Shown here: positions 6,731 to 60,373 of the stretch, in pieces
Layout: the number at the start of each line of letters is the position of its first letter
Numbering within the stretch: the stretch's first letter is position 1
DNA from: Streptomyces sp. DG1A-41
Lineage (GTDB): Bacteria; Actinomycetota; Actinomycetes; Streptomycetales; Streptomycetaceae
Assembly (NCBI RefSeq): GCF_037055355.1
Contig: NZ_CP146350.1
Location: forward strand, 6,781,001-6,845,000
Reading direction: 5' to 3'
DNA: 64,000 bases
Made by a program: the position numbers and the translations under genes
The notes under the pieces: model-generated
Told to the model about the DNA's origin: nothing
Databases searched by the model: none
What the model saw: the letters and a program-made list of their open reading frames with translations, nothing else

Positions 6731-8224
6731 ATGACCTCCTCTTCTTCCCCTTCCCAGGACACCAAGCGCTTCGCGCACAGCCACCCCGAGGGTCTTCGGG
6801 CCGATGCCCTGATGGAAGAGGACGTCGCCTGGAGCCACGAGATCGACGGAGAGTGGGACGGCGACCAGCTCGACCGCTCCGAGCGCGCGGCTCTGCGCCG
6901 TGTGGCGGGCCTCTCCACCGAGCTCGAGGACGTCACCGAGGTCGAGTACCGCCAGCTCCGCCTGGAGCGGGTCGTCCTCGTCGGCGTCTGGACCTCGGGA
7001 ACCGTGCAGGACGCGGAAAACTCCCTCGCGGAGCTCGCCGCCCTCGCGGAAACGGCCGGCGCGCTGGTGCTCGACGGTGTGATCCAGCGCCGCGACAAGC
7101 CCGACGCGGCCACCTACATCGGCTCCGGCAAGGCCCGGGAGCTGCGCGACATCGTCCTCGAGTCGGGCGCGGACACCGTCATCTGCGACGGTGAGCTCAG
7201 CCCGGGCCAGCTGATCCACCTCGAGGACGTCGTCAAGGTCAAGGTCATCGACCGGACCGCCCTGATCCTGGACATCTTCGCCCAGCACGCCAAGTCCCGA
7301 GAGGGCAAGGCGCAGGTTGCGCTCGCGCAGATGCAGTACATGCTGCCGAGGCTCCGGGGCTGGGGTCAGTCGCTGTCCCGGCAGATGGGCGGCGGCAAGG
7401 GCGGCGGCCTCGCCACCCGTGGTCCCGGTGAGACCAAGATCGAGACGGACCGGCGGCGGATCCGCGAGAAGATGGCGAAGATGCGCCGGGAGATCGCGGA
7501 CATGAAGACCGGCCGCGAGATCAAGCGCCAGGAGCGCAAGCGCCACAAGGTGCCCTCGGTCGCCATCGCGGGCTACACCAACGCCGGCAAGTCCTCGCTG
7601 CTCAACCGCCTCACGGGCGCGGGCGTGCTGGTGGAGAACGCCCTGTTCGCGACCCTCGACCCGACCGTGCGCCGGGCCGAGAGCCCGAGCGGCCGGCTGT
7701 ACACGCTGGCCGACACGGTCGGGTTTGTGCGCCATCTGCCCCACCACCTGGTCGAGGCGTTCCGCTCCACGATGGAGGAGGTCGGCGAGTCCGACCTGAT
7801 CCTGCACGTGGTGGACGGTTCGCACCCGAACCCGGAGGAGCAGCTGGCCGCCGTGCGCGAGGTGATCAGGGACGTCGGCGCCACCGACGTACCCGAGATC
7901 GTCGTGATCAACAAGGCCGACGCGGCCGACCCGCTGACGCTCCAGCGGCTGATGCGTGTCGAGAAGCGGTCCCTGGCCGTCTCGGCCCGCACCGGCCAGG
8001 GCATCGACGAGCTGCTCGCGCTCATCGACAACGAGCTGCCGCGCCCGTCGGTCGAGATCGAGGCGCTCGTGCCGTACACGCACGGCAAGCTGGTCGCCCG
8101 TGCCCACGACGAGGGCGAGGTCCTCTCCGAGGAGCACACCCCGGAGGGCACCCTGCTCAAGGTGCGGGTGCACGAGGAACTGGCGGCGGAGCTCACGCCG
8201 TATGTCCCTGCGCCGGCGCTCTGA
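6731..8224 (+). CDS. hflX: GTPase HflX
   Basis: A ribosome-associated OBG-HflX-family GTPase implicated in rescuing or splitting stalled ribosomes. The protein is 497 residues, with the extended N terminus usual in actinobacteria. It has the HflX N-terminal domain (GVIQRRDKPDAATYIGSGKARELRD), a coiled linker (MAKMRREIADMKTGREIKRQERKRHK) and the G domain: G1 GYTNAGKSS at 281-289, G3 DTVGFV and G4 NKAD at 394-397. AAGGA lies a few bases before ATG 6731. The gene is followed by a perfect hairpin terminator, so it ends its own transcript. Confidence 0.96.
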   Translation: MTSSSSPSQDTKRFAHSHPEGLRADALMEEDVAWSHEIDGEWDGDQLDRSERAALRRVAGLSTELEDVTEVEYRQLRLERVVLVGVWTSGTVQDAENSLAELAALAETAGALVLDGVIQRRDKPDAATYIGSGKARELRDIVLESGADTVICDGELSPGQLIHLEDVVKVKVIDRTALILDIFAQHAKSREGKAQVALAQMQYMLPRLRGWGQSLSRQMGGGKGGGLATRGPGETKIETDRRRIREKMAKMRREIADMKTGREIKRQERKRHKVPSVAIAGYTNAGKSSLLNRLTGAGVLVENALFATLDPTVRRAESPSGRLYTLADTVGFVRHLPHHLVEAFRSTMEEVGESDLILHVVDGSHPNPEEQLAAVREVIRDVGATDVPEIVVINKADAADPLTLQRLMRVEKRSLAVSARTGQGIDELLALIDNELPRPSVEIEALVPYTHGKLVARAHDEGEVLSEEHTPEGTLLKVRVHEELAAELTPYVPAPAL

Positions 8225-9731: not shown

Positions 9732-10955
9732 TCACCGGCCCGCGAACTTCTCGCTGACCGAGTCGTACACGCCCTTGGCCACGTCACCCAGCCGCGGCCC
9801 GGCCAGCCAGCCCGACGTCACCGGGCCGATCGAGGTGTTGGACACCAGCGCGGGCTTGCCGTCCGAGCCCGTCGCGACCCAGCCGCCGCCGGACGAACCG
9901 CCGGTCATGGTGCAGCCGATGCGGTACATCGTCGGGTCCGACGCGGTGACCGACAGCCGGCCCGGCTGGTCCTGGCATTGGTACAGCTTCTGCCCGTCGT
10001 ACGGTGGCGCGGCCGGGTATCCGATGGCCGTCACGTTCTTCGCCTTCGGCACGGCGGGGGCCTTGAAGTCCACCGGCAGCGCCGAACCGACCGTCTCCTC
10101 CAGCGACCTGCCGCCACTACCCTTCTCCGGCGTCACATGGATGACCGCGAAATCGTAGGGAGCGCCGTCCCCGCCCGTCGAGCCGCCCTGCTCGATCCAC
10201 TGGTCCGAGGTCTGTGCCCAGTCCCCCCACCAGACGCCGTAGGGAGCGACGTCCTCCCTGGTGGCGTTCTCCAGTTCCGCGACCGGCTTGCCGTCGTCGT
10301 TGTACGACGGCACGAACGCGATGTTGCGGTACCAGCCGCCCTTCTTGCCCGCGTGCACGCAGTGGCCCGCCGTCCACACGAGGTTGGACTTGCCCGGGTG
10401 GGCCGGGTCCTTCACCACCGTCGCCGAGCAGACGGCCGAGCCCTTGGGAGAGTCGAAGAACACCTTCCCGGCCGTGGGCGCGTTGGCGTGGTACGACGGC
10501 GGCACGGCCTGCGCCTGGACCGGCTCGGGCGCGGGATCGGTCACGCCCTGGTCACCGGAGAGGTCGCTGTCGTCGATGCCCTCGTCGGGCTCCTCGGCCT
10601 CCCGCATGCGGTCCGGGTCCCAGAGTCCCTCGATGATCGGGTTGATGTATTCGTTGGCCTCGCGCAGCCAGTCGTCCCGGTCCCAGTTCTTCCAGGCGCC
10701 GTTCTTCCACTTGTCGATGTCGATCCCGTGCTCGCGGAGCCGGTCCCTGATGTCGTCCGGGATCCTCAGCTTGCCGTCGTCGGAGGCGCCGGCCGACGCG
10801 GAGGCCTCGCCGCCCGCCGCGGCGTCGCCCGACTCGCAGGCGGTGGCGGTCAGCGCGAACGCCGAGGCGAGGGCCACGGCGGCCAGCACGGGGGAGTTCC
10901 TGCGGCGTGCCCTCCCCTCTCGGCTGGCGGTGGACAACGGCCGTGTGGATCGCAT
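9732..10955 (-). CDS. Exported trypsin-like serine protease, probable lipoprotein
   Basis: A 407-residue protein with an N-terminal basic region, a hydrophobic core (LAAVALASAFALTATAC) and Cys40 in a weak lipobox, hence probably lipid-anchored outside the membrane. A charged, Trp-rich linker follows (KWKNGAWKNWDRDDW at about 82-96). The chymotrypsin-fold catalytic triad is visible as His198 (WTAGHC), Asp268 (PYDFAVIH) and Ser355 (TGGSSGGGW). A GGGGGAG ribosome site precedes ATG 10955. The upstream region is shared with the divergent aminotransferase gene. A dead paralogue lies directly downstream, so the pair arose by tandem duplication. The physiological substrate is unknown. Confidence 0.9.
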   Translation of the reverse strand: MRSTRPLSTASREGRARRRNSPVLAAVALASAFALTATACESGDAAAGGEASASAGASDDGKLRIPDDIRDRLREHGIDIDKWKNGAWKNWDRDDWLREANEYINPIIEGLWDPDRMREAEEPDEGIDDSDLSGDQGVTDPAPEPVQAQAVPPSYHANAPTAGKVFFDSPKGSAVCSATVVKDPAHPGKSNLVWTAGHCVHAGKKGGWYRNIAFVPSYNDDGKPVAELENATREDVAPYGVWWGDWAQTSDQWIEQGGSTGGDGAPYDFAVIHVTPEKGSGGRSLEETVGSALPVDFKAPAVPKAKNVTAIGYPAAPPYDGQKLYQCQDQPGRLSVTASDPTMYRIGCTMTGGSSGGGWVATGSDGKPALVSNTSIGPVTSGWLAGPRLGDVAKGVYDSVSEKFAGR

Positions 10956-11286
10956 GATGTGACTCCCCCTGATGTGGAACGAGCATGGACGAACCGGTGC
11001 TTCGGGCCTGGTTCCCGCCTACTCATGGGGAGTTCAGGCCGATCTCACGGCGTCCGGGAACGGCACCACACACTATGCGGTGGCTGTGGGGGCGGCCCGA
11101 CGGAACCGCAACAGTTCCGTCACGGAAAGGATCTTGAGGCAACCCGTAACCCGGTGAGCGGACCGCGGTTGGTAGCGGTGGGGGGTCTGCTGTCTGTGTG
11201 TGGTCCTCTGTGCCCGTGCCCAGTGGGAGGTCAGGGAAGTCGTGGCGGAATCCACCCATGGAGGATGTGCGTCCGAGGAGGCCACT
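10956..11286. other. Divergent intergenic region, protease / NIS-type operon
   Basis: About 330 bp that must carry promoters for both directions. The only striking structure is the 8-bp inverted repeat listed separately at 11099-11121. I looked for a DmdR/IdeR iron box (TTAGGTTAGGCTCACCTAA-like) and saw none. Confidence 0.6.
11099..11121. promoter_or_regulatory. Perfect 8-bp inverted repeat, candidate operator
   Basis: GACGGAAC at 11099-11106 and GTTCCGTC at 11114-11121, separated by 7 nt, lie in the middle of the divergent promoter region. The centre-to-centre geometry suits a dimeric regulator. No regulator gene is adjacent, so the binding protein is unknown. Confidence 0.45.
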
Positions 11287-12711
11287 GTGGGGCGTATGCC
11301 GGTGCGGGCCCTCCCCAGCGCCGCCGACGACACGGCACCGGGAGCGCGCGCCGCACATGAGGGGATTCTGCGCCGCCAGTCCGCGCGCGAGTCCGCTGCC
11401 CGCACGTACGCCCGTGCCCTGCCGATCGTGCCGGTGCGGGCCAGGGGACTGACCATCGAGGGCGCGGACGGCCGCCGCTACCTGGACTGCCTCTCGGGCG
11501 CCGGCGCGCTCGCCCTCGGGCACAACCACCCGGTCGTTCTGGAAGCCATCCGCAAGGTTATCGACTCCGGCGCGCCCCTGAACGTCCTCGACCTGGCCAC
11601 ACCCGTCAAGGACGCCTTCATCACCGAGCTGTTCCGCACCCTGCCCGCAGGGCTCGCCGACCGCGCCCGCGTGCGGTTCTGCGGACCGGCCGGCAGCGAC
11701 GCCGTGGAGACCGCCTGCGAACTGGTGCGCGCTGCGACCGGCCGGACCGGCCTCATCGCGTTCACCGGCGCCTCCCACGGAAGGACGGCCGGAGCACTCG
11801 ACGCGTCCGCCGACGCCCACGACGCACGGGTCGCCCGCCTGTACCCGCAGGACTACCACTGTCCCTTCGGCCTCGGGGGCGAACGCGGGGCCGACCTCGC
11901 CGCCCGCTGGACCGAGTCCGTCCTGGACGACCCCGGGCCGGGCTTTCCGCTCCCCGCCGGGATGATCGTCGAGCCCGTCCAGGGGGAGGACGGGGTGATT
12001 CCCGCACCGGACGCCTGGCTGCGGCGCATGAGGCAGCTCACGGCCGACCGGTCCATCCCCTTGATCGCCGACGAGATCCAGACCGGCGTCGGGCGGACCG
12101 GAGCCTTCTGGGCCGTGGAGCACAGCGGAGTGACCCCAGACGTGATGGTCCTCTCCAAGGCCATCGGAGGCAGTCTGCCACTGGCGGTCGTGGTGTACCG
12201 CGACGACCTCGACGTCCCGGAACCCGGCGCCCCCGCCGGCACTTTCCGCGGCAACCAACTCGCCATGGCCGCCGGCACGGCGACCCTCACCCACGTCCGG
12301 GAAAACCACCTCACCGAACGCGCGGCGACTCTTGGGGCGCGCATGCTGGGTCAACTCCAGGGGCTGGTCGGGGAATTTCCGTGCGTCGGCGACGTGCGGG
12401 GGCGGGGGCTGATGATCGGGGTGGAGTTCGTGGATCCGGAGGGCGAGACCGGGAGAGCCGGGCGGGCGGCTGAGGCAGCGGGGGCACCTCTCGCCGCCGC
12501 CCCCGAACTGGCGGCCGCTGTCCAGCGGGAGTGCCTGCGGCGCGGCCTCATCGTCGGACTCGGCGGCCGTCACGCCAGCGTCGTCCGGCTGCTGCCGCCC
12601 CTGACGATCACCGACGAACAGGCGGCCGCCGTGCAGGACCGCCTGGCCGACGCGGTCCGGGCGGCAGCTCGGTGCGATGGGGGCATGGCGGCGGCGCCGT
12701 ACCCGTCGTGA
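11287..12711 (+). CDS. Class III PLP aminotransferase (diaminobutyrate aminotransferase-like)
   Basis: A fold-type I aminotransferase of about 474 residues. Visible signatures are DGRRYLDCLSGAGALALGHNHP, the phosphate-binding GPAGSDAVETA, IADEIQTGVGRTG, and Lys291 in VLSKAIGGSLPLAVV as the PLP Schiff-base lysine. It resembles the diaminobutyrate-2-oxoglutarate aminotransferases of siderophore clusters (RhbA type), which make 2,4-diaminobutyrate from aspartate semialdehyde. GTG 11287 is preferred because GAGGAGG at 11275-11281 sits five bases upstream. It is the first gene of a three-gene unit with an IucA/IucC synthetase and an acyltransferase. No decarboxylase for converting the product to diaminopropane is present here. 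Substrate assignment is inference. Confidence 0.88.
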   Translation: MGRMPVRALPSAADDTAPGARAAHEGILRRQSARESAARTYARALPIVPVRARGLTIEGADGRRYLDCLSGAGALALGHNHPVVLEAIRKVIDSGAPLNVLDLATPVKDAFITELFRTLPAGLADRARVRFCGPAGSDAVETACELVRAATGRTGLIAFTGASHGRTAGALDASADAHDARVARLYPQDYHCPFGLGGERGADLAARWTESVLDDPGPGFPLPAGMIVEPVQGEDGVIPAPDAWLRRMRQLTADRSIPLIADEIQTGVGRTGAFWAVEHSGVTPDVMVLSKAIGGSLPLAVVVYRDDLDVPEPGAPAGTFRGNQLAMAAGTATLTHVRENHLTERAATLGARMLGQLQGLVGEFPCVGDVRGRGLMIGVEFVDPEGETGRAGRAAEAAGAPLAAAPELAAAVQRECLRRGLIVGLGGRHASVVRLLPPLTITDEQAAAVQDRLADAVRAAARCDGGMAAAPYPS

Positions 12712-12787
12712 GCCTCAACGCCGTGAGAACTCATGCCATGGGCCTTCACCCAGCGACGTCCCGGAACCACCCAACGAGGTGCCTGTC

Positions 12788-14824
12788 TTGAAAGCCATCC
12801 CTGAGCGCGACGACCACGCCATGACATTGGGACGAGGCTCTTCCCCTGACCTCCGGGCCTCGGAGGTGTCGGCGAACTCAGCGGTCACGGCGAACCCGGC
12901 GGTCCCGTGTCAGAGGTCTGGGGCGGCGCAGTACGCCGAGGCGCAGGGCGGCGAGGTGAGGGACGGTGATGTGAAGGCTGGTGGATTCACCACCGACCTC
13001 CTTGAGCATCCCGACCCGCATGCCGTCGCCCAGGCAGCAGCCGTGGAGGCGCTGCTCCGGTGCTGGGTGCGAGAGACCAGCCGACCCGCCCCTACCGACG
13101 GCCTCCTCCGCATCCCCCTTCCCGCCAGCGGCACGGCCCTGCTCGCCCCCGTCCGCTACTGGTCCCCGACGGGCTGGCACCGCTTCGGTCTCCCGCGTCT
13201 GGCCGACGCTCCCGACCACGCCCCACCGGCAGACGCCGTCACGGTCGCCGCACTGCTCTCCAGGGAGACGCCCGCAGACGGACAGGGTTACGCCCACGGT
13301 AACGCCCACGCCCACGGCGACAGTAACGGCGGTATCGCACTTGTCGCGGGCGTTGCCGATTCCCTCCGCCGCGTCACCTCCTTCCTCAGCGACCGCCGTG
13401 AACACCCGGTCGACAGCCCCGACCTCTTCCTGGAGTCGGAACAGTCACTCGTCCTCGGACACCCCCTGCACCCGACCCCGAAGAGCCGAGAAGGCCTCTC
13501 CGAGGCTGAAGCACGCCTGTACTCGCCCGAGTTGCACGGATTCTTCCCCCTCCACTGGATCGCTGTCGCCCCCTCCGTCCTCGCCACCGACTCCGCCTGG
13601 ACCGAACGCGGCCGCCCTGTCACCGCGGCCCGACTCACCGCACGCCTGGCCGGGACCGACCTGCCGCTGCCGGACGGGTACGCCCTACTGCCCGTGCACC
13701 CCTGGCAGGCCCGCGAGATCCGGCACCGCCCGGAGACCGCTGCCCTGCTCGACAGGGGACTGCTCCGCGACCTCGGCACCCACGGCACTCCCTGGCAACC
13801 CACCTCCTCCGTACGAACGGTCTACCAAACCGGTGCTCCCGCGATGCTCAAGCTGTCGCTGGGCCTGCGCATCACCAACTCCCGTCGCGAGAACCTCCGT
13901 AAGGAACTGCACCGCGGTGTCGAGGTCCACCGCCTGCTCCGCAGCGGACTCGCGCAGCAATGGCGGGCCGTGCATCCGTGCTTCGACATCGTTCGCGACC
14001 CGGCCTGGATCGCTGTCGATGCTTCCGATGGCTCCGACTGTTCCGGTGGCGTCCCCTTGCCCGGACTGGATGTGGTGATCCGCCACAACCCGTTCAGCCC
14101 CTCGGACGATGTCTCCTGCGTCGCCGGACTCGTCTCGCCGCGCCCCTCCTCACCCGCCCGGCCGGGAACCGCTCCCGACCGCCCGGAGATCCACGGCCGG
14201 GTCCTTCGGTCCCGGCTGGCCGAGGTCGTCACGCGTCTCGCCCGCCGGACCGGCAGGCCCCGCGGAGCCGTCGCCGCCGAGTGGTTCCTGCGCTACCTCG
14301 AACACGTCGTGCGCCCCGTCCTGTGGCTGGACGGCGAGGCCGGCATCGCCCTGGAGGCTCACCAGCAGAACACCCTGCTCCTGCTGGACAGCGACGGATG
14401 GCCAAGTGGCGGCCGCTACCGCGACAACCAGGGCTACTACTTCCGCGAGTCCCGGCGCGCGGACCTCGACGCCCGGCTGCCCGGCATCGGAGAGCGGAGC
14501 GACACGTTCGTCTGCGACGAGGTCACCGACGAGCGCTTCGCTTACTACCTGGCGGTCAACAACGTCCTCGGCCTCATCGGCGCGTTCGGCTCCCAGGGGC
14601 TGGCCGACGAGCGGCTGCTGCTCGCCGCCTTCCGCCGTTTCCTCGGAAACGTCGCCTCCGGCCCGGCCCGGCTGCGCACCTCGCTGCCGGCCTGGCTGCT
14701 CGACTCACCCGTCCTGCGCTGCAAGGCCAACCTGCTGACCCGACTCCACGGCCTCGACGAACTCGTCGGCCCGGTCGACACCCAGTCCGTCTACGTCACC
14801 ATCGCCAATCCCCTGCACTGCTGA
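12788..14824 (+). CDS. IucA/IucC-family NIS siderophore synthetase
   Basis: An ATP-dependent ligase that condenses a carboxylate (classically citrate) with an amine or hydroxylamine. Conserved blocks are LPVHPWQAREI, the nucleotide-binding SSVRTVYQTGAPAMLKLSL with ITNSRRENLRKEL, and the C-terminal EAHQQNTLLLLD with YRDNQGYYFRES. A His/Gly-rich insertion (GYAHGNAHAHGDSNGG) interrupts the N-terminal half and looks like a low-complexity loop. The start is taken at TTG 12788, seven bases after GAGGT; GTG 12779 and ATG 12821 are alternatives. It follows the aminotransferase gene by 76 bp and precedes the acyltransferase gene by 82 bp. It is the core enzyme of the locus; the product is not predictable from sequence. 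Confidence 0.92.
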   Translation: MKAIPERDDHAMTLGRGSSPDLRASEVSANSAVTANPAVPCQRSGAAQYAEAQGGEVRDGDVKAGGFTTDLLEHPDPHAVAQAAAVEALLRCWVRETSRPAPTDGLLRIPLPASGTALLAPVRYWSPTGWHRFGLPRLADAPDHAPPADAVTVAALLSRETPADGQGYAHGNAHAHGDSNGGIALVAGVADSLRRVTSFLSDRREHPVDSPDLFLESEQSLVLGHPLHPTPKSREGLSEAEARLYSPELHGFFPLHWIAVAPSVLATDSAWTERGRPVTAARLTARLAGTDLPLPDGYALLPVHPWQAREIRHRPETAALLDRGLLRDLGTHGTPWQPTSSVRTVYQTGAPAMLKLSLGLRITNSRRENLRKELHRGVEVHRLLRSGLAQQWRAVHPCFDIVRDPAWIAVDASDGSDCSGGVPLPGLDVVIRHNPFSPSDDVSCVAGLVSPRPSSPARPGTAPDRPEIHGRVLRSRLAEVVTRLARRTGRPRGAVAAEWFLRYLEHVVRPVLWLDGEAGIALEAHQQNTLLLLDSDGWPSGGRYRDNQGYYFRESRRADLDARLPGIGERSDTFVCDEVTDERFAYYLAVNNVLGLIGAFGSQGLADERLLLAAFRRFLGNVASGPARLRTSLPAWLLDSPVLRCKANLLTRLHGLDELVGPVDTQSVYVTIANPLHC

Positions 14825-14906
14825 TCACCCTGACCGTCCCTGACGACAACCGACCTCCTTCATCCCTGAGGACACGCCTCACCCACTTTCCTGAGAGGAG
14901 CGCTTG

Positions 14907-15830
14907 GTGCCTCCCGCCGACTCGACCGCCCACACCGGTACCGCTGGCCCTGCCACGGCCGACGTCCATGCCGGGGAGGGCTCCAACGCCCGCTTCGATG
15001 CCGGTCCCGGCGTCGCGTCCAGCGCGGGAGCCGACGCGGATTCCGGTGCGGATCCCTGTGCGGATTCCTGTGCCCGCCACGGCGAAGACACCATGGACCT
15101 ACGGCTCCCGGACGAACTCCTCGCCCTCATCGCGGACGAGGCGTCCGACATCCACGGAGCACGGCGGCCGGACCAGCGCACGGCCCAGCCTTCCGACTCC
15201 ACCGCCGCCACCCGTGAGGCCCCCGTCCCCTCGGCCCTCTCCGTCCTCGTGGTCGAGGACGATCTCCTCGACCGCGTCGCCGACTGGGGCCCGACCGACA
15301 CACCCGCGGGCTTCTTTCACCTCGTCCCCGTGCGCGTCGAACGTGATCTTCCGCTCATCAGCCGCTGGATGAACGACCCCGCCGCTGGGGCGTTCTGGGA
15401 GCTGTCCGGGCCACAGCACGTGACCGAGGACCACGTGCTGGCCCAGCTAGTCGGCGACGGACGCAGCGTGCCGTGCATCGGCGTGCTGGACGGAACGCCG
15501 ATGAGCTACTGGGAGATCTACCGGGCGGACCTGGATCCACTGGCCCGCTACTACCCGGCCCGGCCTCACGACACGGGGCTCCACCTTCTTGTCGGCGCTG
15601 TCGCCGACCGAGGGCGTGGCCTCGGCGGTCTGCTGCTCCGAGCCGTCGCCGACCTCGTACTCGCGCAGCGGCCCTCCTGCGCACGCGTCATCGCGGAACC
15701 CGACATTCGCAACACCCCCTCCATCGCCGCCTTCTTGACCGCCGGCTTCCGGTTCTCCGCCGAGGTCGACCTGCCCGACAAGCGAGCCGCCCTCATGGTC
15801 CGAGACCGGTCCCTCCGGCATCTTCTGTAG
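14907..15830 (+). CDS. GNAT acyltransferase of the siderophore type (RhbD/IucB-like)
   Basis: The C-terminal 180 residues are a GNAT domain of the IucB/RhbD/MbtK kind. It opens with FHLVPVRVERDLPLISRWMN and contains the acyl-CoA loop DRGRGLGGLLLRAVADLV and EPDIRNTPSIAAFLTAGFRF. The first 110 residues are low-complexity (Asp, Ala, Gly, Ser, with GADPCADSCARHGED) and unlike the domain, so the mature start could be further in. GAGGAG lies six bases before GTG 14907. In known pathways the enzyme acetylates or acylates the (hydroxyl)amine that the synthetase then couples to citrate. No N-hydroxylase gene is adjacent, so acylation of a plain amine or use of a distant hydroxylase must be considered. 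Confidence 0.88.
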   Translation: MPPADSTAHTGTAGPATADVHAGEGSNARFDAGPGVASSAGADADSGADPCADSCARHGEDTMDLRLPDELLALIADEASDIHGARRPDQRTAQPSDSTAATREAPVPSALSVLVVEDDLLDRVADWGPTDTPAGFFHLVPVRVERDLPLISRWMNDPAAGAFWELSGPQHVTEDHVLAQLVGDGRSVPCIGVLDGTPMSYWEIYRADLDPLARYYPARPHDTGLHLLVGAVADRGRGLGGLLLRAVADLVLAQRPSCARVIAEPDIRNTPSIAAFLTAGFRFSAEVDLPDKRAALMVRDRSLRHLL

Positions 15831-16180: not shown

Positions 16181-18157
16181 ATGACGAAGCCCTCACTCCC
16201 CGAACTCCTGCATGCTGCCGTCACTGCCGTCGGCGGTACGGAGCGCCCCGGTCAGGTGACCATGGCCGAAGCCGTCGCAGAGGCGATCGACAACGGCTCC
16301 CACCTGCTGATCCAGGCCGGCACCGGCACCGGCAAGTCGCTGGGCTACCTGGTGCCCGCGCTCGCGCACGGGGAGCGTGTGGTCGTCGCCACCGCCACCC
16401 TGGCCCTTCAGCGCCAGCTGGTGGAGCGCGACCTGCCGAGAACGGTCGAGTCGCTGCACCCCCTGCTGCGCCGGCGCCCGGAGTTCGCGATGCTCAAGGG
16501 CCGGTCGAACTACCTGTGCCTGCACCGCCTGCACGAGGGTGTGCCGCAGGACGAGGAGGAGGGTCTCTTCGACCAGTTCGAGGCGGCCGCGCCCACCAGC
16601 AAGCTGGGGCAGGACCTGCTGCGGGTGCGCGACTGGGCCGACGAGACCGAGACCGGCGACCGCGACGACCTCACACCCGGCATCTCGGACCGGGCTTGGG
16701 CTCAGGTGTCGGTGTCGTCGAGGGAGTGCCTGGGCGCCTCGAAGTGCGCCTATGGCGCGGAGTGCTTCGCCGAGATGGCCCGCGAGCGCGCCAAGCTCTC
16801 CGAGGTCGTCGTCACCAACCACGCACTGCTCGCGATCGACGCCATCGAGGGTGCCCCGGTCCTTCCGCAGCACGAGGTGTTGATCGTCGACGAGGCCCAT
16901 GAGCTGGTCTCGCGGGTCACCGGAGTCGCCACTGGCGAGCTCACGCCCGGCCAGGTCAACCGTGCGGTGCGCCGGACCGCCAAACTCGTCAACGAGAAGG
17001 CGGCGGACCAGCTCCAGACCGCCGCCGAGGGTTTCGAACGTCTGATGGAGCTCGCCCTGCCGGGCCGCCTGGAGGAGATCCCCGAGGACCTCGGCTACGC
17101 CCTCATGGCACTGCGCGACGCGTGCCGCACCGTGATCTCCGCCATCGGCACGACCCGTGACAAGTCCGTCCAGGACGAGGACGCGGTCCGCAAGCAGGCT
17201 CTGGCCTCCGTGGAGAACGTGCACGACGTGGCGGAGCGGATCACGAACGGTTCCGAATGGGACGTGGTCTGGTACGAGCGCCACGACCGCTTCGGTGCCT
17301 CCCTGCGCGTTGCCCCTATGTCCGTCTCGGGTCTGCTGCGGGAGAAGCTCTTCGCGGACCGCTCCGTGGTCCTGACATCCGCGACGCTGAAGCTGGGCGG
17401 CGACTTCAACGGCGTCGGCGCTTCCCTCGGGCTCGCCCCCGAGGGCACCGAGGGCGATGACCTCCCGCAGTGGAAGGGCATCGACGTCGGCTCGCCCTTC
17501 GACTACCGCAAGCAGGGCATCCTGTACGTCGCGAAGCACCTGGCGCGCCCCGCGCGGGACGGCGACCGCGGGGACATGCTCGACGAGCTCACGGAGCTCA
17601 TCCAGGCGGCGGGCGGCCGCACCCTGGGCCTGTTCTCCTCCATGCGGGGCGCCCAGGTGGCCGCCGAGGAACTGCGTTCCCGGATCCCCGAGTTCCCGAT
17701 CCTCCTCCAAGGGGAGGAGACGCTCGGCGAGCTCATCAAGAACTTCGCGGCCGACCCGAAGACCTGCCTGTTCGGCACCCTGTCGCTGTGGCAGGGCGTG
17801 GACGTCCCCGGACCCAGCTGTCAGCTGGTCGTCATGGACAAAGTCCCGTTCCCGCGCCCGGACGACCCCCTGATGAGCGCCCGCCAGAAGGCCGTGGAGG
17901 ACGCTGGCGGCAATGGCTTCATGGCGGTCGCCGCCACCCACGCCGCGCTCCTCATGGCCCAGGGCGCCGGCCGTCTCGTACGGGCGTCGGGCGACCGCGG
18001 TGTGGTCGCCGTGCTGGACCAGCGGCTGGCGACGGCCCGGTACGGGGGCTACCTGAAGGCGTCACTGCCCGACTTCTGGTACACGACGGACCGTAACCAG
18101 GTGCGGAAGTCGCTGGCGGCGATCGACGCGCTGGCGAAGCAGGCGGAAGCCGAGTGA
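16181..18157 (+). CDS. ATP-dependent DNA helicase, DinG/XPD family
   Basis: A superfamily 2 helicase of 658 residues. Walker A is GTGTGKS at 47-53 with Lys52, and Walker B is DEAH at 237-240. The motifs TATLALQRQL, TSATLKLGG and WQGVDVPGPSCQLVVMDKVPF are present, as is the arginine motif QGAGRLVRASGDRG. Between motifs Ia and II lie cysteines (YLCLHRL, ECLGASKCAYGAECF) in the spacing expected for the 4Fe-4S cluster of XPD-like helicases. It probably unwinds DNA during repair. An AGGGTGG ribosome site precedes ATG 16181. It stands next to, and converges on, lexA, but no LexA box was seen upstream. Confidence 0.93.
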   Translation: MTKPSLPELLHAAVTAVGGTERPGQVTMAEAVAEAIDNGSHLLIQAGTGTGKSLGYLVPALAHGERVVVATATLALQRQLVERDLPRTVESLHPLLRRRPEFAMLKGRSNYLCLHRLHEGVPQDEEEGLFDQFEAAAPTSKLGQDLLRVRDWADETETGDRDDLTPGISDRAWAQVSVSSRECLGASKCAYGAECFAEMARERAKLSEVVVTNHALLAIDAIEGAPVLPQHEVLIVDEAHELVSRVTGVATGELTPGQVNRAVRRTAKLVNEKAADQLQTAAEGFERLMELALPGRLEEIPEDLGYALMALRDACRTVISAIGTTRDKSVQDEDAVRKQALASVENVHDVAERITNGSEWDVVWYERHDRFGASLRVAPMSVSGLLREKLFADRSVVLTSATLKLGGDFNGVGASLGLAPEGTEGDDLPQWKGIDVGSPFDYRKQGILYVAKHLARPARDGDRGDMLDELTELIQAAGGRTLGLFSSMRGAQVAAEELRSRIPEFPILLQGEETLGELIKNFAADPKTCLFGTLSLWQGVDVPGPSCQLVVMDKVPFPRPDDPLMSARQKAVEDAGGNGFMAVAATHAALLMAQGAGRLVRASGDRGVVAVLDQRLATARYGGYLKASLPDFWYTTDRNQVRKSLAAIDALAKQAEAE

Positions 18158-18335: not shown

Positions 18336-19115
18336 TCAGACGCGGCGCAGTACGGCCACCACCTTGCCGAGGATGGTCGCGTCGTCGCCGGGGATCGGCT
18401 CGTAGGCCGCGTTGTGCGGCAGGAGCCAGACGTGGCCGTCTTCGCGCTTGAAGCGCTTGACGGTGGCTTCTCCGTCGAGCATCGCGGCCACGATGTCGCC
18501 GTTCTCGGCGACCGGCTGACGGCGGACCGTGACCCAGTCGCCGTCGCAGATGGCGGCCTCGATCATCGAGTCCCCCACGACCTTCAGGACGAACAGCTCA
18601 CCGTCACCGACGAGCTGGCGGGGGAGGGGGAAGACGTCCTCGACGGACTCCTCGGCGAGGATCGGGCCACCGGCGGCGATGCGGCCGACCAGCGGGACGT
18701 ACGACGCGGCTGGCTTGCCCGCGGTGTCTGTGGGCTGCACGGATGCGGCCTGGTCGGAGCCGCGCACCTCGTACGCGCGCGGCCGGTGCGGGTCGCGGCG
18801 CAGGAAGCCCTTGCGCTCCAGTGCCATCAGCTGGTGTGCGACGGAAGACGTGCTGGACAGGCCGACGGCCTGGCCGATCTCGCGCATCGACGGCGGGTAG
18901 CCGCGCCGCTGCACCGAGTCCCTGATGACCTCGATCACGCGACGCTGGCGGTCGGTGAGTCCGGAACTGTCCGCCCGGATGCCAGGAGGTCGTCCCGGCA
19001 GGGAGCGCTTGTGCCCCTCCGGATTCGTGGCTTCGTTCATCGCGTGCACCGGCTCCAGTCGGCCCTGGGAGCGGTCCTGGGCAGTGATGGCGGCACTGTC
19101 TGCGGTGGTGGTCAC
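18336..19115 (-). CDS. lexA: SOS repressor LexA
   Basis: A 259-residue repressor of the DNA-damage regulon. The N-terminal winged helix ([34 protein letters not shown], 53-86) binds DNA. The self-cleavage bond is Ala148-Gly149 in GRIAAGGPI, and the serine-lysine dyad is Ser183 (VGDSMIEA) and Lys220 (ATVKRF). The actinobacterial N-terminal extension of about 50 residues is present. GTG 19115 is chosen because GAGAGGGG lies just upstream and the sequence [15 protein letters not shown] matches the known Streptomyces N terminus. The promoter overlaps an SOS box, consistent with autorepression. Confidence 0.96.
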
Positions 19116-20292: not shown

Positions 20293-20457
20293 CCGGCGGG
20301 CCGGACCCGGGCGGCAGCTCCGGGCCCCGGCCGGGCGGCGGCGATGTGAAGACCTGTTGCGGGCGATGTGAGTGGGTGCCCGCGACACCAGACAGAACAC
20401 CGTGCCACGGGAACAACGGGGCACTTCAGGGCGTTTTCGCCCGTACAGGGAGGCGGC

Positions 20458-57789: not shown

Positions 57790-57808
57790 AGAGGTGAGCC
57801 TAACCTGA
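57790..57808 (-). promoter_or_regulatory. Iron box (DmdR/IdeR operator)
   Basis: On the minus strand TCAGGTTAGGCTCACCTCT matches the streptomycete iron-box consensus TTAGGTTAGGCTCACCTAA at 16 of 19 positions, with the core AGGTTAGGCTCACCT exact. It touches the start codon of the Suc_Fer-like gene, so repressor binding would also cover the transcription start or the ribosome site. Confidence 0.88.
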
Positions 57809-57842
57809 GTTGGCTCGCGGTGACTCTCGGCCCCGCCCTGCG

Positions 57843-59102: not shown

Positions 59103-59141
59103 GGGGGTCACCGTATCCGCCTAGCGGACCATTGAATGATG

Positions 59142-59158
59142 TATTGATTCAATCAATA
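59142..59158. promoter_or_regulatory. AT-rich palindrome between the divergent citrate synthase genes
   Basis: TATTGATT-C-AATCAATA is a perfect palindrome of 8-bp arms, 40 bp from one start and 54 bp from the other. The flanks repeat similar words (CCATTGAATG at 59129, AGTCAACCATGG at 59171). It is the only AT-rich block in the area and a strong candidate operator. Confidence 0.65.
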
Positions 59159-59212
59159 TTGACACAAGTCAAGTCAACCATGGACAGTCGAATCAAGTCC
59201 AGGGAGGAAGAC

Positions 59213-60373
59213 ATGTCCGTCAACAGGTCCGCAGCCGCTCTCATCGACGCACCACGGGGACTCGCCGGTGTCGTCGTCACCGACACCCGGGTAGGTGACG
59301 TCCGTGGCGTCGAGGGCTTCTACCACTACCGGCAGTACTCCGCCGTCGACCTCGCGCGAACCCGCGCCTTCGAGGACGTCTGGCACCTGCTCGTACACGG
59401 CGAACTGCCGGACGCCGGGCAGAGCGCGGCGTTCGCGGCGCAGACCGCGGCGCTGCGGCGGCTGCCCGACGAGGTACGAGCGGCCCTGCCGGCCATCGCG
59501 GCGGCCGGCGGGCGCTCCGGCCCGCTCGCCGGGATGCGCACGGCACTGTCGCTGCTGGGCGCGGCCAAGGGCTTCCGGCCCGTGTACGACATCGATGCCG
59601 ACCGGCGTGGGCAGGACACCCTCGAGGCGGCAGCGGCCGTACCCACGCTGCTCACCGCGCTGCACCGGCTGGGGAAGGGGCTCGAGCCCGTGGAGCCGCG
59701 CGAGGACCTGTCGTACGCGGCCAATTACCTGTACATGTTGACCGGTTCGGTGCCGACCGAGCAGCACGCACGGGCGATCGAGCAATACCTGATCTCAACC
59801 ATTGATCACGGATTCAATGCGTCAACGTTCACGGCCCGGGTCGTCGCGTCGACGGGTGCGGACGTGGCGGCCTGCCTCGCCGGTGCGGTGGCGGCGCTGT
59901 CGGGGCCGTTGCACGGGGGTGCGCCCAGCCGTGCGCTGGACACCCTGGACGCGATCGGCACCCTGGACCGTATCGACTCCTGGGTGCGGCAGCGGGTGCT
60001 CGCCGGGGAGCGCATCATGGGCTTCGGGCACGCGATCTACCGCACGGAGGACCCGCGGTCGCGGATGCTGCGCGAGGTCGCCCAGGGGTTCGGCGGCCCG
60101 CGGGTGGACTTCGCCGTGGAGGTCGAGCGGCATGTCGAGGCGATCCTGGCGGAGCTGAAGCCCGGCCGTGAACTCCACACCAACGTGGAGTATTACGCGG
60201 GCGTGGTCATGGAACTCTGCGGCCTGCCCCGCGAGATGTTCACACCGACGTTCGCCGCCGCGCGCGTGGTGGGCTGGAGCGCCAACATCCTGGAACAGGC
60301 GGAGGACACGAAGATCATCAGGCCGGTGGCGCGCTATGTGGGGCCGGAGGCGCCGGCGCCCGTGCCTGCCTGA
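59213..60373 (+). CDS. Citrate synthase (CitA-like)
   Basis: 386 residues. It condenses acetyl-CoA with oxaloacetate, or possibly propionyl-CoA as a 2-methylcitrate synthase. The catalytic region is complete: ISTIDHGFNASTFTARVVAST, SGPLHGGAPSRALDTL (His of the oxaloacetate site), IMGFGHAIYRTEDPRSRMLR (His), HTNVEYYAGVVMELCGLP and GWSANILEQAEDTKIIRPVARYVG. AGGGAGG lies five bases before ATG 59213. Within the gene at about 59790-59825 there is an unusually AT-rich patch (CAACCATTGATCACGG) that resembles the intergenic operator words. Confidence 0.93.
   Translation: MSVNRSAAALIDAPRGLAGVVVTDTRVGDVRGVEGFYHYRQYSAVDLARTRAFEDVWHLLVHGELPDAGQSAAFAAQTAALRRLPDEVRAALPAIAAAGGRSGPLAGMRTALSLLGAAKGFRPVYDIDADRRGQDTLEAAAAVPTLLTALHRLGKGLEPVEPREDLSYAANYLYMLTGSVPTEQHARAIEQYLISTIDHGFNASTFTARVVASTGADVAACLAGAVAALSGPLHGGAPSRALDTLDAIGTLDRIDSWVRQRVLAGERIMGFGHAIYRTEDPRSRMLREVAQGFGGPRVDFAVEVERHVEAILAELKPGRELHTNVEYYAGVVMELCGLPREMFTPTFAAARVVGWSANILEQAEDTKIIRPVARYVGPEAPAPVPA

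Follow-up and report, generated by a model that had tools for sequence, protein, structure and literature searches.

A three-gene siderophore-type locus of Streptomyces that resembles a reduced rhizobactin-type operon

The stretch analysed here, called the window, comprised 64,000 nucleotides of Streptomyces sp. DG1A-41 (contig NZ_CP146350.1, positions 6,781,001 to 6,845,000). It contained a three-gene locus on the plus strand (window positions 11242–15830), composed of a class III aminotransferase (AT), an IucA/IucC synthetase of the NIS type, and an RhbD-like GNAT acyltransferase (GN). Some relatives have a complete rhizobactin-type operon at this chromosomal position, and the trio looks like what remains of one, an origin that an earlier note on this DNA did not foresee. 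The trio is probably a siderophore operon that was reduced early, was kept under selection, and makes a non-hydroxamate citrate amide during development; its sigma factor dependence, stage, and product are what we infer. The proposed origin from a complete rhizobactin-type operon, drawn from comparison of gene content, is the part that is new relative to earlier knowledge.

In total, 127 loci were read, consisting of 125 Streptomycetaceae stretches chosen from match lists, the window, and one locus of another family (L063). Genes in the relatives were called by codon usage, with a merge gap of 900 bases in the final census. The complete operon was composed of AT, a decarboxylase (DC), a first NIS synthetase (NIS-A, or A in locus types), GN, a hydroxylase (OX), and a second NIS synthetase (NIS-B, or B). 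The window type, AT-A-GN, was found in 40 loci and AT-A-GN-B in another 40, followed by AT-DC-A-GN-OX (11), A-GN-OX-B (9), A-GN (8), the full AT-DC-A-GN-OX-B (6), A-GN-B (5), A-GN-OX (2), and A alone (2), while DC-A-GN-OX-B, AT-DC-OX-A-GN, A-B, and DC-A-GN-OX occurred once each. The 93 reduced loci, from Streptomyces and its neighbour genera, had neither the hydroxylase nor the decarboxylase, and 45 of them still had an RhbF-side NIS-B. The GNAT gene was found in 124 of the 127 loci and accompanied NIS-A in every slot locus read. Loss of NIS-A itself was not measurable in this set, since every locus was picked by a NIS-A match. The earlier note had held that a complete aerobactin-like set around the homologues in relatives would speak against its reading. 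A complete set was found in 6 and a hydroxylase in 31 of the 127 loci, in other genera; these sets explain the origin of the trio and do not make the Streptomyces locus complete.

The slot was defined by hflX or a protease gene on one side and a helicase gene or lexA on the other. These anchors flanked both sides in 116 of the 127 loci and one side in 6, and were found on neither side in L111, L118, L124, L126, and L177. The full operons in the slot belonged to Embleya, Yinghuangia, and two further genera (L107, L109, L110, L121, L125, L207; named records L235–L239). A scan of named contigs placed the full type in the slot of Embleya hyalina, E. scabrispora, Yinghuangia soli, Y. seranimata, and Streptomyces sp. 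SID3343, with an iron box scoring 14–16 in all five, and gave three Kitasatospora records with A-GN-OX-B; several of these records come from genomes already in the first set, so that the contrast supplies names and is not an independent test. Outside the slot, Embleya, Yinghuangia, and their kin carried an extra NIS-A, alone or with NIS-B (L111, L124, L126; named L266, L267, L269, L273). Off-slot clusters of rhizobactin type were also seen (L064, L065, L069–L073, L077, L081, L082), in which the search showed no GNAT gene; most had glutamine-synthetase-like and Orn/DAP-type decarboxylase genes alongside, with domains checked on L071 only.

The order of gene loss was scored on a FastTree phylogeny of the adjacent helicase with 116 rows, which required 2 changes for OX, 3 for DC, 11 for NIS-B, and 9 for AT. 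A clade of 86 rows with a support of 100 was without any hydroxylase, and the second OX change, in L117, lay outside it. These changes place one loss of the hydroxylase at the base of Streptomyces and its neighbours and one elsewhere. The comparison supports an early loss of the decarboxylase as well, and later, repeated losses of NIS-B and AT. In a tree of 72 NIS proteins built by a quick method, an RhbC side was separated from a side with RhbF and DesD. The synthetases of the window and of the other trios included were located on the RhbC side, and the extra synthetase of the four-gene loci on the RhbF/DesD side, close to that of L063.

The genes missing from the window were searched for directly. 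No tblastn match was found in the 64 kb for a rhizobactin-type decarboxylase (three queries) or a SidA/IucD-type N-hydroxylase (two queries), as the earlier note had stated. The RhbF-side second synthetase was absent from the locus, where its queries gave only weak cross-matches onto NIS-A. The claimed lack of a transporter agreed with Pfam searches on the coding strand, which were confined to sixteen genes from 2812 to 27232 and showed no transporter domain there. Neither an iron box nor a Zur box was found near the locus with at most 3 mismatches to one consensus string for each, in keeping with the earlier statement that no iron box precedes the locus. The best iron-box match upstream of the trio was 11/18, no better than in shuffled sequence. 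Zinc control was set aside, the window having no match to the Zur-type box. The only match to the iron-box consensus in the window was at 57790–57808 (3 mismatches, 0 expected), directly before an open reading frame of 441 aa at 57810 that had no Pfam match; this is followed by a citrate synthase gene (59132–60373), and citrate is the substrate of NIS synthetases.

In the relatives, the iron box was scored over the 18 fixed positions of the consensus with a threshold of at least 14. It was present in 6/6 full loci, which scored 14–16, in the single AT-DC-OX-A-GN locus (1/1), in 2/9 A-GN-OX-B loci, and in none of the other 111. All 93 reduced loci were thus below the threshold. Lowering it to at least 13 added 1/40 AT-A-GN (L133), 2/5 A-GN-B, three more of the 9 A-GN-OX-B, and 1/2 A-GN-OX loci.

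The AT gene (11242–12711, plus strand), the counterpart of SCO5799, encoded a predicted RhbA-like aminotransferase of the L-2,4-diaminobutyrate (DABA) type. It matched aminotransferase class III of Pfam with 273 bits and TIGR00709 (dat family) with 423.3 bits against a cut-off of 401.6, and was 50% identical to S. meliloti RhbA. An ectoine-type locus was rejected, as the protein fitted the dat family and not EctB, where scores of 300 and 292 bits fell short of the 552 cut-off. From the ribosome-binding site and the alignment, the gene probably starts at GTG 11242, behind GGAGG, and not at 11287 as given in the earlier note. The synthetase gene (12677–14824, plus strand), the SCO5800 counterpart, was placed on the RhbC/IucA side (NIS-A) by domains and tree; it had full IucA_IucC (225.5 bits) and FhuF (122.3 bits) domains, with the aerobactin synthase IucA as the nearest solved structure. 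The third gene (14904–15830, plus strand), the SCO5801 counterpart, encoded an RhbD/MbtK-type GNAT acyltransferase with an Acetyltransf_8 match of 159.6 bits (conserved domain 15294–15827) and conserved columns common to RhbD; MbtK was its nearest solved structure. The earlier description of three genes in one direction was confirmed. The synthetase start (12677 to ~12983) and the GNAT start (14904, with conservation from 15294) are uncertain because the N-terminal parts are poorly conserved. These long stretches, 12677–12983 and 14904–15294, are either real extensions or wrong starts, and the N-terminal stretch of the Streptomyces GNAT was missing from that of L063 (173 aa).

Purifying selection on the trio genes was supported by the data. 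From 20 close pairs (18 for AT, 8 for NIS-B), the median omega was 0.234 for AT, 0.25 for NIS-A, 0.184 for GNAT, and 0.188 for NIS-B. Across reduced and OX-bearing loci, NIS-A had 121 near-invariant columns (at least 97% in both groups), including the His, Lys, and Arg of the shared motifs, and GNAT had 26. A switch of the active site was considered and set aside: one GNAT, nine NIS-A, and five AT columns separated loci with and without hydroxylase, and these had no clear link to substrate binding and gave no clear sign of changed chemistry. It is very improbable that the locus is a functionless remnant shedding its genes one by one. Such decay would account for the 11 changes of NIS-B, for the 13/199 Streptomyces without NIS-A by E cut-off, for the missing or impaired aminotransferases described below, and for selection weaker than that on the helicase. 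However, omega over the 20 pairs stayed at 0.105–0.432 for NIS-A and 0.101–0.349 for GNAT, two AT-less pairs included, and both the NIS-A columns and an upstream motif were conserved.

The upstream motif, CGTAAC-N16-GGTTGG (11145–11172, plus strand), was recognised by its footprint in relatives as a promoter-like motif of the extracytoplasmic function (ECF) sigma type, similar to that of sigma-BldN. Upstream regions were searched in operon orientation with the regular expression CGT(AAC/GAT)-N16-(C/G)GTTGG. It was found in 58/98 regions, in 0/98 on the opposite strand, and with a mean of 0.0 over 20 shuffling rounds. In the enlarged set it was found in 61/127 loci, including 60/93 reduced loci; by type, it preceded 27/40 AT-A-GN, 28/40 AT-A-GN-B, 3/8 A-GN, 2/5 A-GN-B, 1/9 A-GN-OX-B, and 0/25 of the others. 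Some loci under the threshold of a position weight matrix carried near variants, with an N15 spacer and GGTTGTA or with CGTTGC-N16-CGTTGATA. The regular-expression counts were preferred, because the matrix was trained on regular-expression hits from the same data and exceeded its threshold on the reverse strand in 8/127 upstream regions.

The BldN promoter motif given in the accessible part of PMC2375139 is CGTAAC-N16-CGTTGA, and the window motif, read off the sequence, agreed with it at 10/12 positions. In the 9 Mb genome of the strain, a relaxed pattern gave 21 matches against 12 for a reversed control and is thus weak evidence by itself. The stricter CGTAAC-N16-SGTTG occurred at 5 sites, one of them before the trio. 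Another fitted the BldN consensus at 12/12 positions and preceded a response regulator that combines receiver and LuxR domains and that we take to be BldM. It is rather unlikely, though the likeliest of the alternatives considered, that a different ECF sigma factor reads the promoter of this same reduced operon and that the product serves stress or another metal and not development. The ends of the −10 element (GGTTGG or CGTTGG, where BldN has CGTTGA) would fit such a factor, as would the misfit of the chaplin upstream regions described below and the copper-related transcript changes tabulated for SCO5799 and SCO5800 (PMC6414726). Against it stand the exact 16-base spacer, the bldM-like match, the lack of a Zur-type box in the window, and the published induction in aerial and spore stages.

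That induction was tabulated for solid cultures of S. coelicolor (PMC3610822, Table 4). At 24, 48, and 72 h, the log2 values against early mycelium were +0.4, +1.3, and +1.8 for SCO5799 and +0.8, +1.8, and +1.3 for SCO5801. Both were up in the aerial and spore stages, opposite to desA (+1.1, −3.7, and −3.2), and the coelichelin genes listed there were also down. The mention in the earlier note of an unassigned siderophore cluster in S. coelicolor was borne out, as SCO5799–5801 are listed as a putative siderophore cluster with no product assigned in the accessible text of PMC7324645 and PMC3224560. For S. venezuelae, the available parts of PMC8788739 list a siderophore cluster without a product and those of PMC12466573 a cluster vnz_27055–27160, a range that includes lexA (vnz_27115 in PMC9380542). 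A search of the openly accessible literature, with few subscription papers covered, gave no functional study of the locus and no statement on its origin or promoter.

Several observations weigh against the reading of an early-reduced operon under developmental control. Selection on the trio was weaker than on the helicase (median omega of 0.057). The AT-DC-A-GN-OX loci had neither the iron box nor the regular-expression motif (0/11), so that loss of the box is not strictly tied to loss of OX, and an off-slot B-A-GN locus in which DC and OX were not seen (L311) had an iron box of 17. Only 5/13 A-GN and A-GN-B loci carried the motif. Two full loci (L110 and L207, from the genus of Embleya) and two A-GN-OX-B loci exceeded the threshold in the matrix scan, and the motif may therefore predate the gene loss. 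Chaplins are reportedly BldN targets. Upstream of seven chaplin-domain matches in the same genome, some of them in one gene or in adjacent genes, sites fitting the BldN consensus were not above chance; owing to this misfit, the sigma factor is not settled. In the accessible data of PMC7324645, the trio was down together with the desferrioxamine and coelichelin genes in a strain over-expressing SCO3201.

The preferred reading remains that of an early reduction with retained function. Its ancestor would have been an iron-regulated six-gene operon for a citrate hydroxamate of the rhizobactin/schizokinen type (AT, DC, NIS-A, GNAT, OX, NIS-B) between hflX and helicase-lexA. As the comparison supports, OX and DC were lost early, on the line leading to Streptomyces and its neighbours, in which no iron box is seen, and NIS-B and AT were lost repeatedly afterwards. 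Sigma-BldN, or a similar ECF sigma factor, would transcribe the trio in aerial hyphae. L-2,4-diaminobutyrate would come from the AT or from a different DABA aminotransferase, for example EctB; the GNAT would acylate one of its amines; and NIS-A would form citryl-adenylate from citrate and couple citrate to the other amine. The predicted product is a carboxylate-type, non-hydroxamate N-acyl-diamino-acid citrate amide, a single amide without NIS-B and a double one with it. It may serve development as a metal chelator or a comparable metabolite, and not iron starvation as a secreted siderophore; the earlier suggestion that the product need not be an iron siderophore was supported.

The DABA basis, also proposed earlier, was upheld by the dat-family assignment and weakened by the aminotransferase itself, which was not seen in 13/93 reduced loci. 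The catalytic Lys was lost in 3/96 aligned copies (L087, L131, and L139, replaced by Q, G, or R), two short rows having been dropped before the alignment. Among the 13 AT-less genomes, EctB exceeded its cut-off in 10 and the other three had an off-slot match of 337–366 bits to the EctB model; the three genomes with a Lys-less AT also had EctB. Because AT-bearing genomes have EctB too, these matches are compatible with the DABA idea without proving it.

The synthetase was widely distributed. At E ≤ 1e-3 it matched in 198/199 sampled Streptomyces, with a best E ≤ 1e-150 in 186/199 and not in 13/199. At E ≤ 1e-60, NIS-A matched in 121/121 sampled Streptomycetaceae genomes covering 17/17 genera, with the match of one genome (G598, in L124) outside the slot, and in 73/394 genomes of a class-wide sample. 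In the accessible text of PMC11734326, an NI-siderophore cluster was one of seven clusters shared by all 49 complete genomes in a Mash cluster, and this may be the present locus. DesD was found in 155/199 Streptomyces at E ≤ 1e-100, fewer than the trio synthetase; genomes absent from these 155 matches were counted as lacking it. No DesD-like protein was found in the 6 full-operon genomes, whose matches were the slot NIS-B or other NIS proteins with 33–39% identity. On one reading of this distribution, iron supply may have passed to desferrioxamine, leaving the older operon available for a new role.

The same figures bear on completion in trans, by which DesA, DesB, DesD, or other clusters replace the lost enzymes and the product is still a hydroxamate siderophore, perhaps a citrate-des hybrid. 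The des genes include a counterpart for every lost gene, and the strain itself carries a des-type operon (L084). Besides the contrast in DesD between Streptomyces and the full-operon genomes, a Lys/Orn-oxygenase family match was found in 199/199 genomes, with a broad model that also matched 12/14 control genomes; a hydroxylase borrowed from elsewhere, as the earlier note suggested, is compatible with this match but not demonstrated by it. In one genus (g150), DesD was found in 4/10 sampled genomes and both NIS-B-less loci were among these four. Such completion is nevertheless unlikely. Of the 75 Streptomyces census genomes in the DesD search, 15 keep the locus without a DesD match, including the trio of G018 and the A-GN loci of G012, G044, G094, and G187; the trio genomes G596, G597, and G607 also had none, although lacking DesD does not equal lacking every hydroxylase. 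The iron box was not found, and published expression was opposite to that of desA.

The slot of the window was bordered upstream by an HflX GTPase gene (6731–8224, plus strand; TIGR03156, 432.7 bits) and a trypsin-like protease gene (9732–10889, minus strand), whose Pfam match was under its cut-off. Downstream lay a DinG/YoaA-like helicase gene (16181–18157, plus strand), assigned by domain searches, and lexA (18336–19115, minus strand; LexA_DNA_bind 102.5 bits, Peptidase_S24 121.5 bits), a neighbour kept in relatives. The intergenic desert described earlier amounts, on this side, to a gap of 350 bases between the GNAT and helicase genes. NrdR and NrdJ were further neighbours, and downstream of the locus an nrdJ RNA (RF03034, 84 bits; 20352–20435) preceded the gene for the class II ribonucleotide reductase. 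Matches to the IucA/IucC family numbered four in this genome: one in the trio, DesD, and two close to 7.43 Mb. The last two formed a divergent IucA/IucC-type pair (L083, 7.425–7.445 Mb) adjoining cobalamin genes (CbiD and tetrapyrrole methylases).

The locus offers a testable case of a siderophore pathway shifted from iron control towards developmental control. The comparison also orders the gene losses and directs attention to a metabolite, perhaps made by most Streptomyces at a stage which siderophore screens under iron limitation would miss. A more specific proposal, held tentatively and with slightly less than even confidence, is that the iron-siderophore operon became a core developmental locus in the ancestor of Streptomyces and its neighbours: having shed hydroxylase, decarboxylase, and iron box, it came under a sigma-BldN-type promoter, and the enzymes left behind came to make a citrate amide in aerial hyphae and spores. 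If so, the metabolite would be a spore metal store, a metallophore, or a morphogenetic signal, and nearly the whole family would keep this developmental locus more faithfully than desferrioxamine.

By gene order and annotation, the trio is the same locus as SCO5799–5801 and vnz_27055–27160, as far as the accessible descriptions of these go. One of the closest known systems is the rhizobactin 1021 operon rhbABCDEF of S. meliloti (L103), in which RhbA, RhbC, and RhbD correspond to the trio in the same order, with 38% identity over 82% of the query for the NIS protein and the 50% noted above for the aminotransferase. Unlike that operon, the window locus was without RhbB decarboxylase, RhbE-type hydroxylase, and RhbF synthetase, no iron box was seen, and the searched neighbour genes included no rhizobactin-like regulator or transporter. 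The trio was not filed as a rhizobactin-type operon, because searches for three defining genes and for the iron box were negative. The full operons of Embleya, Yinghuangia, and others had the slot in common with the window and related AT, NIS-A, and GNAT proteins, but retained DC, OX, NIS-B, and the iron box (14–16/18). The desferrioxamine operon desABCD shared the logic of decarboxylase, hydroxylase, GNAT, and NIS synthetase, with DesD falling together with RhbF in the NIS tree. Judged by its gene content, the trio would work like the first half of the rhizobactin pathway.

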